64,000 nt of DNA, taken from IMG/VR virus record IMGVR_UViG_3300002143_000079, positions 16,336 through 80,335 of that record; one strand, given 5' to 3'. Under the pieces are notes generated by a model. That model had not been told where the DNA came from, ran no database searches, and saw only the letters and a program-made list of their open reading frames with translations. A program made the position numbers and the translations under genes. This DNA comes from a virus. Positions 31,721 through 63,785 of this stretch are shown in pieces (the stretch's first letter is position 1; the number at the start of each line of letters is the position of its first letter).

Positions 31721-32104
31721 TGGTGGAGATGATGGAAGTTGAATCCATGTCTTCAATCGTTATACCGTCAAAGCCTACATGTTTAGGATGTTTAAATTTT
31801 CGAGATTGTGTTCTGAACATACCAAACCACACAACCCTTATACTCAAGTTTTCTCGTTTGGTAACCTAAGTCGAATTACCAAACACTCACGAAAAATTCG
31901 TTGAATAGACTATCGTGTGTCATCCATTCAACGGCACAACCTTTTATTAGGCTGCGACAGCAACTTCGTCCATTTCTGGAGTGAAGTCATAGGCGATTAC
32001 GTTTTTTGCGTTTAATCTTTTTGATAGAAATTTTTAAGAGGCCAACTATCATCCTCTACATGCCTCGTACTTTATCTCAACTGAATCGAAACCAGTACAT
32101 CCCC
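31721..32104 (-). ncRNA. ssrA: tmRNA (transfer-messenger RNA)
   Basis: A complete 384-nt tmRNA that rescues stalled ribosomes and tags the peptide. The 5' acceptor strand GGGGATG (32104-32098) pairs with CATCTCC near the 3' end, followed by an encoded ACCA. The T-arm is ATGGA-TTCAACT-TCCAT. The conserved CTGGTTTCGA at the 5' end and CTAAACATGTAG near the 3' end match bacterial tmRNA landmarks. The resume codon GCA is at 32009. The tag frame (32009-31950) reads AKNVIAYDFTPEMDEVAVAA and ends in TAATAA. The AVAA ending fits ClpXP recognition. Very few phages carry their own copy. Confidence 0.97.
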
Positions 32105-32131: not shown

Positions 32132-32159
32132 ACTATACTACATCTTTTCTATTTGTCAA
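32132..32159 (-). promoter_or_regulatory. tmRNA promoter
   Basis: TTGACA (plus 32154-32159), 16-nt spacer, TATAGT (32132-32137). Transcription should start about 20 nt before the mature tmRNA 5' end, leaving a short leader for RNase P removal. Confidence 0.85.
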
Positions 32160-55777: not shown

Positions 55778-56512
55778 ATGAATGTCAAGATAAAACTTAT
55801 GAAATTATGGGAAGAAAAAAACTCAACAGACCAATGGCTGAACTTGTTGAAGAACGTCGGAAAAGACAACTTCGATACTATCACCGAAATAAAGAACGTC
55901 TTAATCAAGAAAGACTCAACCGATACTATAAACAGAGGAATTTACTTGATAGTGAATAAAATTGATGGTAAATATTATGTGGGAAGCTCCATCAATTTTA
56001 CTAAGCGATGGAATTCCCACCGACACTGTTTGAAAACCAACAATCATGATTCCGAAAAATTACAACATGCAATAGACAAATATGGTATTGACAATTTTGA
56101 ATTTGTGATTATTGAACGATTGGTTGATGATTTACTATTGATAGAACAAAAATATTTAGATTTTTGTCAATTGAACAAAGAAAATTGTTACAACGTTGCA
56201 TTCAGTTCATCCAGTCCAATGTTAGGACGCAAACATAATGAGGTTACTAAGTCTCTCATATCAAAACGATTGATAGGAAAAAACTCCGGTGTCAAGAACT
56301 TCTTTCATGGAAAAGAATTTCGTAATGGTGGTTTACCACCAGACGAAACTCAATTTTCTTTTCAACACATTAACGGAGAAACTTTTAACGGAACACGAAA
56401 AGAGTTTTATACTAAACTCGGTTGTATTCAACAACAGGTGGATAGGATTGTCAATGGTAGAAGAAAATCCTATAAAGGATGGTCACTTACTCATCCTTCC
56501 ACGTCTTCTTAA
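55778..56512 (+). CDS. GIY-YIG homing endonuclease
   Basis: The nuclease core starts around residue 54: RGIYLIVNKIDGKYYVGSS, then the Arg in TKRWNSHRH, KYGIDNFEFVIIE and the Glu of LLIEQKYLDFC. The C-terminus has NUMOD-type segments (FNGTRKEFYTKLGC and RIVNGRRKSYKGWSL). The first 50 residues overlap another frame that looks more like real protein, so the true start is probably near 55930. It lies on the plus strand among minus-strand genes. Confidence 0.85.
   Translation: MNVKIKLMKLWEEKNSTDQWLNLLKNVGKDNFDTITEIKNVLIKKDSTDTINRGIYLIVNKIDGKYYVGSSINFTKRWNSHRHCLKTNNHDSEKLQHAIDKYGIDNFEFVIIERLVDDLLLIEQKYLDFCQLNKENCYNVAFSSSSPMLGRKHNEVTKSLISKRLIGKNSGVKNFFHGKEFRNGGLPPDETQFSFQHINGETFNGTRKEFYTKLGCIQQQVDRIVNGRRKSYKGWSLTHPSTSS
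55807..55959 (+). CDS. Small basic protein (50 aa)
   Basis: ATG 55807 to TAA 55959 gives GRKKLNRPMAELVEERRKRQLRYYHRNKERLNQERLNRYYKQ. The RYYxRNKE repeats are typical of small phage proteins linked to homing endonucleases. It ends inside the GIY-YIG domain in another frame, suggesting an overlap or an insertion of the endonuclease into its 3' part. Confidence 0.6.
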   Translation: MGRKKLNRPMAELVEERRKRQLRYYHRNKERLNQERLNRYYKQRNLLDSE

Positions 56513-59193: not shown

Positions 59194-59625
59194 TCAATAA
59201 TCACTTTGTATAAAATTGTTGGTGACTAGATTACATAATCTTATAAAGTTTTCGGATGTTAGTGAAGCTTTAGCGATGTTAATATCTTTATGAACAAATT
59301 GTAAATTTGTCAAATCATTTGTTCCTCCACGGGAAATCGGATGAATGTGGTCAATAGACATTGTATCTCTAGTCAATCTCTGACCCGTAAACGGACAAAT
59401 CAACTTCTGTTTTTTAGCGATTTTCCATAAATCAAATGGTGTAACAGTGATTAACGGATTTTTATTCTTCATTCGGCCATTACAACCGTTATTTAATCTA
59501 CCGGAAACCGTTTTGAAAACTTTTCTCCGTCTATGGTTTCTCATCCACTCACGTTTTTGTTTTTTATAATGATTATGACGTTCCGAATTGTTTTTTATAC
59601 TTTTGTATTTTTTTGCATTAGGCAT
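59194..59625 (-). CDS. HNH endonuclease
   Basis: 143 residues. A basic N-terminus (about 60 residues, Lys/Arg/Asn/His-rich) is followed by the HNH core: CPFTGQRLTRDTMSIDHIHPISRGGTNDLTNLQFVHKDINIAK. It is related to the plus-strand HNH gene at 61773-62048 (CALTGQKL...ISVDHIVALSNGG). Probably a free-standing homing endonuclease. No early promoter precedes it. Confidence 0.9.
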   Translation of the reverse strand: MPNAKKYKSIKNNSERHNHYKKQKREWMRNHRRRKVFKTVSGRLNNGCNGRMKNKNPLITVTPFDLWKIAKKQKLICPFTGQRLTRDTMSIDHIHPISRGGTNDLTNLQFVHKDINIAKASLTSENFIRLCNLVTNNFIQSDY

Positions 59626-59659
59626 AATTGAGTCCCCTACAAAATAAATAGGGAACCAC

Positions 59660-59687
59660 TTGACAAAAGTATAAAAAATGATATTGT
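59660..59687 (+). promoter_or_regulatory. Promoter facing the gene-free divergence region
   Basis: TTGACA (59660-59665), 16-nt spacer, TATTGT (59682-59687) on the plus strand. No gene starts behind it for 270 nt, so it should drive a noncoding transcript from about 59694. Confidence 0.75.
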
Positions 59688-59693
59688 TTTAAT

Positions 59694-59925
59694 AACAGTC
59701 GATGAAACGACGAGGATAGGGGACCGGAGGCTGATCATATTCCTTTACCGTTAACGCAGATTTGTTATCAAATTCGTTGACTCCGAAGCATTTTATGATA
59801 TTCTCACTTCGTAAGTGAAAGACATAGCCGGTCAGACTAGCGATAAACCGCAAAGGATAGGGCACCAACGCCTGATCATATCACTTTAACGATAACGTAG
59901 AATGTTAAAATAATTTGTATTACCT
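59694..59925 (+). ncRNA. Candidate noncoding RNA with two repeated domains
   Basis: The region between two promoters contains no frame above 5 codons. Hairpin GTCG-ATGAAA-CGAC (59698-59711) starts it; CACTT-CGT-AAGTG lies in the middle. Two 48-nt repeats (59713-59760 and 59854-59901) share AGGATAGGG, CTGATCATAT, CTTTA and TAACG. It ends just before the promoter of the 59964 gene. An origin or protein-binding array is an alternative reading. Confidence 0.6.
59713..59901 (+). repeat. Two 48-nt imperfect direct repeats
   Basis: Copies at 59713-59760 and 59854-59901, 38 of 48 positions identical and no indels, 141 nt apart. Both lie in the gene-free divergence point between the minus- and plus-strand blocks. 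Confidence 0.85.
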
Positions 59926-59963
59926 ATTGACTTTTTATATAAATTTGGTAGTCTGTTCACACG

Positions 59964-61741: not shown

Positions 61742-61772
61742 ATTATTCAATTATGGTAATGCAAAAAAAGTG

Positions 61773-62048
61773 ATGAAACGTAAAAAGTTCACACACTTCA
61801 CTAAAATAACGGCGATGGATTTGTATCATGTCGTCAAAAAACAAAAATGTCGATGTGCATTAACAGGTCAAAAATTAAAAGCCAATACTATCTCGGTGGA
61901 TCACATCGTGGCTTTATCTAATGGTGGTAAGAATGAAATTGATAATATCAGGCTTGTACATGTGGATATAAATCGGATGAAGTTAGCATATGATGATGCC
62001 ACGTTTTTAGAAAACTGTCGGTTAGTGGTCAACCATAAATCCACTTGA
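61773..62048 (+). CDS. HNH endonuclease
   Basis: 91 residues, essentially the HNH core alone: CRCALTGQKLKANTISVDHIVALSNGGKNEIDNIRLVHVDINRMKLAYD. Related to the HNH gene at 59194-59625. It follows the 233-residue gene by 31 nt and has no early promoter. Confidence 0.87.
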   Translation: MKRKKFTHFTKITAMDLYHVVKKQKCRCALTGQKLKANTISVDHIVALSNGGKNEIDNIRLVHVDINRMKLAYDDATFLENCRLVVNHKST

Positions 62049-63473: not shown

Positions 63474-63785
63474 ATGAAAATGACCTTGCAATGTAACCTC
63501 GCTGAAGCAGCGGAAATGATTCGTAAATCCTGTAGTGGTGTGACGGATGTAGTCATCGAAACCACCCCTACCACCCCTGGAATGAATTACGTCGAAGCCA
63601 TCTATCGTGTCACTCGACTGGAATTCCCCAATACCTACGCAAGTTCCCACAAGATTCCGGCAATCAAGCGTATGCGTGAGTTGGTTGGTGGATTGGGTCT
63701 GGCCGGAGCCAAAGCCGCAGTGGAACAGCCTGACCGGGCTATGATGTATTTCGTCACGAATGGTTGTCCAATGACGAACTACTGA
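63474..63785 (+). CDS. Protein with ribosomal L7/L12 C-terminal-like domain (103 aa)
   Basis: 103 residues. The segment KIPAIKRMRELVGGLGLAGAKAAVEQP closely resembles the L7/L12 C-terminal helix-turn (KIxVIKxVRExTGLGLKEAKxLVE), which contacts translation factors. Such mimics occur in some phages and might bind the translation machinery or another partner. Early promoter TTGACA, 17 nt, TACATT, 6 nt, ATG. A hairpin terminator follows. Confidence 0.82.
   Translation: MKMTLQCNLAEAAEMIRKSCSGVTDVVIETTPTTPGMNYVEAIYRVTRLEFPNTYASSHKIPAIKRMRELVGGLGLAGAKAAVEQPDRAMMYFVTNGCPMTNY

Follow-up and report, generated by a model that had tools for sequence, protein, structure and literature searches.

Genomic context of the gene-free region

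The window analysed here is a stretch of 64,000 nucleotides, corresponding to bases 16336-80335 of a virus record totalling 80,335 bases (IMGVR_UViG_3300002143_000079). Near its right end an HNH endonuclease gene and a gene for a 113-aa protein border a region, 59626-59963, in which a preliminary description had placed a noncoding stretch (59640-59930). No supported gene was found in it, and the 59-aa open reading frame present there on the minus strand has no convincing phage relative. The bordering features are:

59194..59625, minus strand: HNH endonuclease gene, 143 aa (Pfam HNH_4 5.2e-07, HNH 1.4e-06)
59927..59954, plus strand: promoter of the 113-aa gene, TTGACTTTTTATATAAATTTGGTAGTCT, a motif that recurs elsewhere in the genome
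59964..60305, plus strand: flanking gene, 113 aa, phrog_21015, unknown function

The region lies at a strand switch, as had been stated, with genes and promoters directed leftward from about 36 to 59 kb and rightward from 59.66 kb. From about 36 kb to the right window end a promoter of the form TTGACTTTTTATAAA...TANNNT is present at nearly every gene and ends a few bases before the start codon. Between 36000 and 64000 there is one strong TTGACTTTTTATAAA-type promoter per gene, with its end about 0-12 nt before the start codon, and the 279-kb phage G003 shows the same pattern; the genes of this part are apparently leaderless or have a very short leader. The window from about 36 kb rightward resembles an early region, from which we infer the timing of its expression. 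Since the 113-aa gene has its own promoter, a small RNA encoded upstream is not required as its leader.

Several other features of these genomes were observed. Three free-standing endonuclease genes (one GIY-YIG, two HNH) lie inside 7 kb, at 55778-56512 (plus), 61770-62048 (plus) and 59194-59625 (minus). A phage-encoded tmRNA at 31721-32104 on the minus strand (Rfam RF00023, 136.5 bits), missed by ARAGORN, has a promoter at 32159, and a tmRNA is also present in G003. The gene at 63474-63785 (plus) encodes a 103-aa protein similar to the C-terminal domain of ribosomal protein L7/L12, scoring 25.4 bits against a Pfam cut-off of 25.9. In the 279-kb relative, a tRNA with anticodon CUA at L020 4540-4615 (minus), called tRNA-Pyl by ARAGORN, is possibly an amber suppressor.

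Two tandem copies of a predicted small RNA gene

Two 48-nt repeats had been reported in the gene-free region. They occupy 59713-59760 and 59854-59901 at a lag of 141 and are identical at 38 of 48 positions (79.2%); in 300 dinucleotide-preserving shuffles of 59640-59930 the best 48-nt pair at any lag reached 29 of 48. A repeat search stretches the similarity to 78 nt at 71% identity. The promoter previously noted ahead of the first repeat was found again, matching the consensus at 10 of 12 positions, and the second repeat has a promoter of its own that had been overlooked. Both are of the type found at neighbouring genes, but no start codon of a supported gene follows either. From its sequence, each repeat is the core of a predicted small RNA gene with its own TTGAC-N16-TA...T promoter, and the two copies, each with a conserved part of 63 nt, stand in tandem within 59660-59897:

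59660..59687, plus strand: promoter of RNA copy 1, TTGACA-16-TATTGT, of a type shared with neighbouring presumed early genes
59694..59756, plus strand: RNA copy 1, conserved part (model R1 match, 87 bits)
59698..59711, plus strand: hairpin of copy 1, GUCG-AUGAAA-CGAC (covariation)
59712..59725, plus strand: linker and G-rich core of copy 1, GAGGA-UAGGGGACC, near-invariant in the alignment
59743..59753, plus strand: 3' module of copy 1, CUUUACCGUUA (family form CUUUAACGUUA; alignment)
59777..59804, plus strand: promoter of RNA copy 2, TTGACT-16-TATTCT, also preceding the single copy in L004
59804..59818, plus strand: additional 5' hairpin of copy 2, UCACUU-CGU-AAGUGA, read from the sequence, present in the predicted fold of the region and identical in L004
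59835..59897, plus strand: RNA copy 2, conserved part (model R1 match, 76.8 bits)
59840..59851, plus strand: hairpin of copy 2, GCG-AUAAAC-CGC (covariation)
59852..59866, plus strand: linker and diverged core of copy 2, AAAGGA-UAGGGCACC, where L004 keeps UAGGGGACC
59884..59894, plus strand: 3' module of copy 2, CUUUAACGAUA (alignment)
59217..59774, no strand assigned: segment present in the window and absent from L004, on which copy 1, its promoter and the larger part of the HNH gene lie

The predicted start of copy 1, 6-7 nt past the -10 box, coincides with the 5' edge of the conserved part. In copy 2 the promoter hexamer and the additional 5' hairpin overlap by one base, the last of the former and the first of the latter, and the transcript may start inside this hairpin.

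A close relative, IMGVR_UViG_3300002138_000087 (L004), aligns at 98-99.7% in the flanks, lacks the 558 nt of the segment listed above and has one RNA copy. This copy occupies the position of copy 2, but its core (GGATAGGGGACCGGAGGCTGATC) is that of copy 1, which marks the window's copy 2 as the diverged one. On this alignment, copy 1, the extra copy of the window, rides on the segment bearing the HNH gene, which was either gained here or lost in L004.

As read by eye, the leader of the HNH mRNA (59626-59660, minus) can fold as GUUCCCUA-UUUAUUUUG-UAGGGGAC, masking a likely ribosome-binding AGGGG, and GGUUCCCUAU in this leader hairpin is a possible pairing site for the copy 1 core (AUAGGGGACC).

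A family of related elements in large phages

A seed search, in which the region was compared at the nucleotide level with whole related records, revealed two further intergenic sites in G003; later searches used three patterns, a structure model (R1) and a sequence model (R2). A covariance search built on the repeats had been suggested, and searches with the R1 and R2 models yielded members in 14 of 16 viral records (model R2 search), with at most five strong members per record. There is one member in each of G001, G006, G007 and G013, and there are two in each of G000, G003, G009 and G011; five are found in each of G005, G008, G012 (one of them partial) and G014, and two in G015 together with weaker ones. 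The 365-kb G010 carries apparently the same stretch as G008. Model R2 found no member in G002 and G004, each of which shares one gene with the window. The first, stricter pattern gave no match in viral sequences, and a broad one returned 46 stretches, most of which are chance or coding matches.

After removal of duplicate stretches, 30 members remained for the alignment, drawn from 12 uncultivated-phage contigs of at most about 280 kb; G006 adds one further member without a recognisable promoter. The carrier phages otherwise share little DNA with the window, and some have up to five copies spread over about 20 kb in both orientations. The position exactly at a strand switch, stressed in the preliminary description, is not a property of the element, as its relatives occupy many other intergenic sites in related phages.

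Database searches were carried out for known counterparts. In the whole window only the tmRNA at 31721-32104 passes the curated gathering scores of Rfam 15, and Rfam searches by E-value with four members or regions gave chance-level matches only, as did blastn against cultured phages and plasmids. Two strict patterns, which divergent copies would escape, had no match in bacterial and archaeal genomes. No member was found in the cultured phages sharing the GP88 gene (XacN1, CM1, DC31, HTVC120P), where the sole similarity was a 21-nt stretch of XacN1 matching the 3' module (E 0.01). ARAGORN predicted no tRNA or tmRNA at the place of any member.

Conserved hairpin, core and 3' module

The members have a common layout, consisting of the promoter, a short hairpin, a core RAGRRUAGGGGACC and usually the 3' module CUUUAACGUUA. 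Downstream of the hairpin the order is the linker RAGRR, the core proper UAGGGGACC (variants UAGGGCACC, UAGGGUACC, UGGGGGACC and UGUGGGACC), a variable stretch and CUUUAACGUUA. The core is near-invariant, but since core and 3' module both served as search patterns, their apparent invariance is inflated. The module was used in two of the searches; among members found without it, CUUUAACGUUA or a close form is present in copy 1, L004, one of the two G003 copies and L024, and absent from the other G003 copy and from G006. As a conserved hairpin the module fails, pairing only 2-6 bp and inconsistently. Three subtypes can be distinguished by the 5' flank (AACA-, GACUA- and GAUGA/GAUGU-), and some members have an additional 5' hairpin like that of copy 2. 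The sequence GGACCGGAG may resemble the 23S sarcin-ricin loop; this likeness was dropped because the bases past the core are not conserved.

Hairpins had also been reported from the sequence of the region. Taken as free folding of the whole region this does not hold, the region folding no better than shuffles (z -1.2 and -0.95), and neither do single members; what stands is one short hairpin per copy that covaries across relatives, and the case for structure therefore rests on covariation. This hairpin lies directly 5' of the core in all aligned members and mostly has 3-4 bp (in one member only 2 bp). Over the 30 members there are 15 different stem sequences with pairing kept, the stems having been picked by hand from the alignments and the pairing of each verified. 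They include GUCG/CGAC, GGGU/GCCC, GGAG/CUCC, GCG/CGC, GCC/GGC and GGC/GCC, as well as GGU/ACC, GGUU/AACC, GACG/CGUC, ACG/CGU, CCG/CGG and AGC/GCU. In a five-sequence seed 90% of cells pair, against 55% when shuffled. An alignment of 24 matches, fitted to the model and containing at least one spurious low-scoring row, gives 86% against 51%, with 17 double changes against 4.0. When the partner is slid by 1-3 columns, the pairing signal is gone in both alignments.

Predicted transcription units

A TTGAC-type promoter (spacer 16-18) precedes all 30 aligned members, its -10 box ending 25-75 nt before the core, and 16 of the 30 were selected independently of the promoter. Among 110-nt stretches drawn at random from this DNA, 9.9% also have such a promoter, and many of these will be real gene promoters. 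According to ORF-based, uncurated gene calls, about half of the members have a gene with its own promoter 80-250 nt downstream, and several have a convergent gene close downstream (within about 100-200 nt). With such neighbours, the members are best read as stand-alone predicted transcripts and not as leaders. No recognisable terminator was found.

The original suggestion of a small RNA thus gains support from conservation among phages sharing little else, from the covarying hairpin and from the promoter at every aligned member. That this is a real RNA family is very likely. With less certainty, 59660-59897 probably contains two tandem genes of one small structured non-coding RNA that acts in trans and belongs to an undescribed family in large uncultivated phages.

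Phage small RNAs are known as a kind, including the trans-acting VpdS of VP882 and PreS of lambda and the AgvB decoy of Sp5 (PMC12197685), with which the predicted RNA shares its small non-coding nature, its own promoter and a probable action in trans. Each of those is described as a lone RNA of a phage whose host is known, whereas here large uncultivated phages carry a structured family with as many as five paralogues in one genome. The manA and wcaG motifs of cyanophages are likewise phage-carried conserved structured RNAs recognised by covariation, but they sit in potential gene leaders (PMC2864571); the present family is stand-alone and was matched by no Rfam model. No description of a multicopy structured RNA family in large phages was found in a limited literature search.

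Possible function and alternative explanations

The RNA would be made early by the host sigma-70-type RNA polymerase, because its promoter type is shared with neighbouring presumed early genes. The hairpin could protect or present the 5' side of the RNA, leaving the unpaired core RAGRRUAGGGGACC as the putative working part. The RNA would act in trans and most likely tie up a conserved factor of the host, either another RNA or an RNA-binding protein, and multiple gene copies would raise the dose of the phage RNA. A sponge or decoy function is suggested only tentatively. For comparison with CsrA/RsmA sponges, GGA motifs were counted by eye; most members contain between one and four of them at varying positions, and where the core reads GGGUACC its GGA is missing.

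A trans-acting antisense RNA, whose G-rich core or 3' module would base-pair with mRNAs of the host or the phage, would also be a stand-alone, promoter-driven predicted RNA of sRNA size, and known phage small RNAs often act so (PMC12197685). This is nevertheless fairly unlikely. In eight phages, the starts of the phage's own early mRNAs were not enriched in 7-nt matches complementary to the conserved parts, a result that speaks somewhat against antisense pairing with phage genes, and the core is nearly identical across paralogues and distant phages, unlike target-tuned seeds. A core common to all paralogues and the lack of enriched complementarity to early mRNAs fit one conserved partner better than many antisense targets.

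A cis-acting antiterminator at early transcript starts, comparable to HK022 put RNA or lambda nut, is quite improbable. The likeness consists in a length of about 70 nt, a position directly behind early-type sigma-70 promoters and several copies per phage, putL being about 70 nt long and located just downstream of PL (PMC9378689). HK022 put acts in cis on RNA polymerase and has two long stem-loops (PMC9378689), while the family has one short conserved hairpin and a G-rich core, with the extra 5' hairpin confined to one subtype. Unlike an early-operon leader, several copies have a convergent gene in the next 100-200 nt or so, leaving no operon to antiterminate, and most of the others precede a gene with its own promoter.

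A replication origin had been considered for the region and is very improbable, as is an R-loop primer, a promoter-made G-rich RNA that would stay on the DNA and start replication. The predicted G-rich transcript without a gene, the strand switch and a change of sign in GC skew at 58-60 kb would agree with it, but the skew follows the coding strand, relatives have up to five copies scattered over about 20 kb in both orientations, and the covarying hairpin points to a folded RNA. Hardly credible is a real or decayed protein-coding repeat on the minus strand, for which the 141-nt spacing is a multiple of three and the 59-aa open frame holds the similar motifs VPYPLRF and VPYPRRF, since a TGA stop interrupts the copy 2 repeat and recurs at the same place in L004, no protein relative was found in phages, loop and spacer lengths vary among relatives in ways that break any frame, and hairpin changes track base pairing.

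Returning to a trans-acting RNA with a conserved host partner, a broader and rather doubtful extension is that large phages have a toolkit of modular small RNAs, in which different 5' heads (the G-rich-core class and at least two others) would be combined with exchangeable 3' modules under their own early-type promoters and would seize a conserved host RNA-binding factor or the ribosome. Little is known about small RNAs of large lytic phages. The present family is defined by sequence, reaches five copies per genome and is kept between phages with few shared genes; its invariant core should have an identifiable partner, and the covariance model can be used to find the RNA in phages with known hosts, where its function would be testable.

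Further RNA-like classes

Two more RNA-like classes have promoters, and sometimes 3' modules, in common with the G-rich-core class (class 1). Class 2 has a hairpin, for example GGC-GAACAAA-GCC, followed by GGAAGGCAGUUCCGCGACCCGUAAUUCC, with the same promoter type and often the same 3' module CUUUAUCGUUA. Class 3, ACACCGAAGAUCCCCAAAUUCCCGAAUCCUAUUGGCG, is found near class 1 copies, and its C-rich stretches could pair over 6-7 bp with the G-rich stretches of class 1, as judged by eye. The sites are:

Class 2: L125 2859 (minus); L127 10458 (plus) and 1799 (minus); L129 5062 (plus); L019 1560 (minus)
Class 3: L126 4113 (plus); L128 871 (minus); L130 19505 (plus); L019 6142 (plus)
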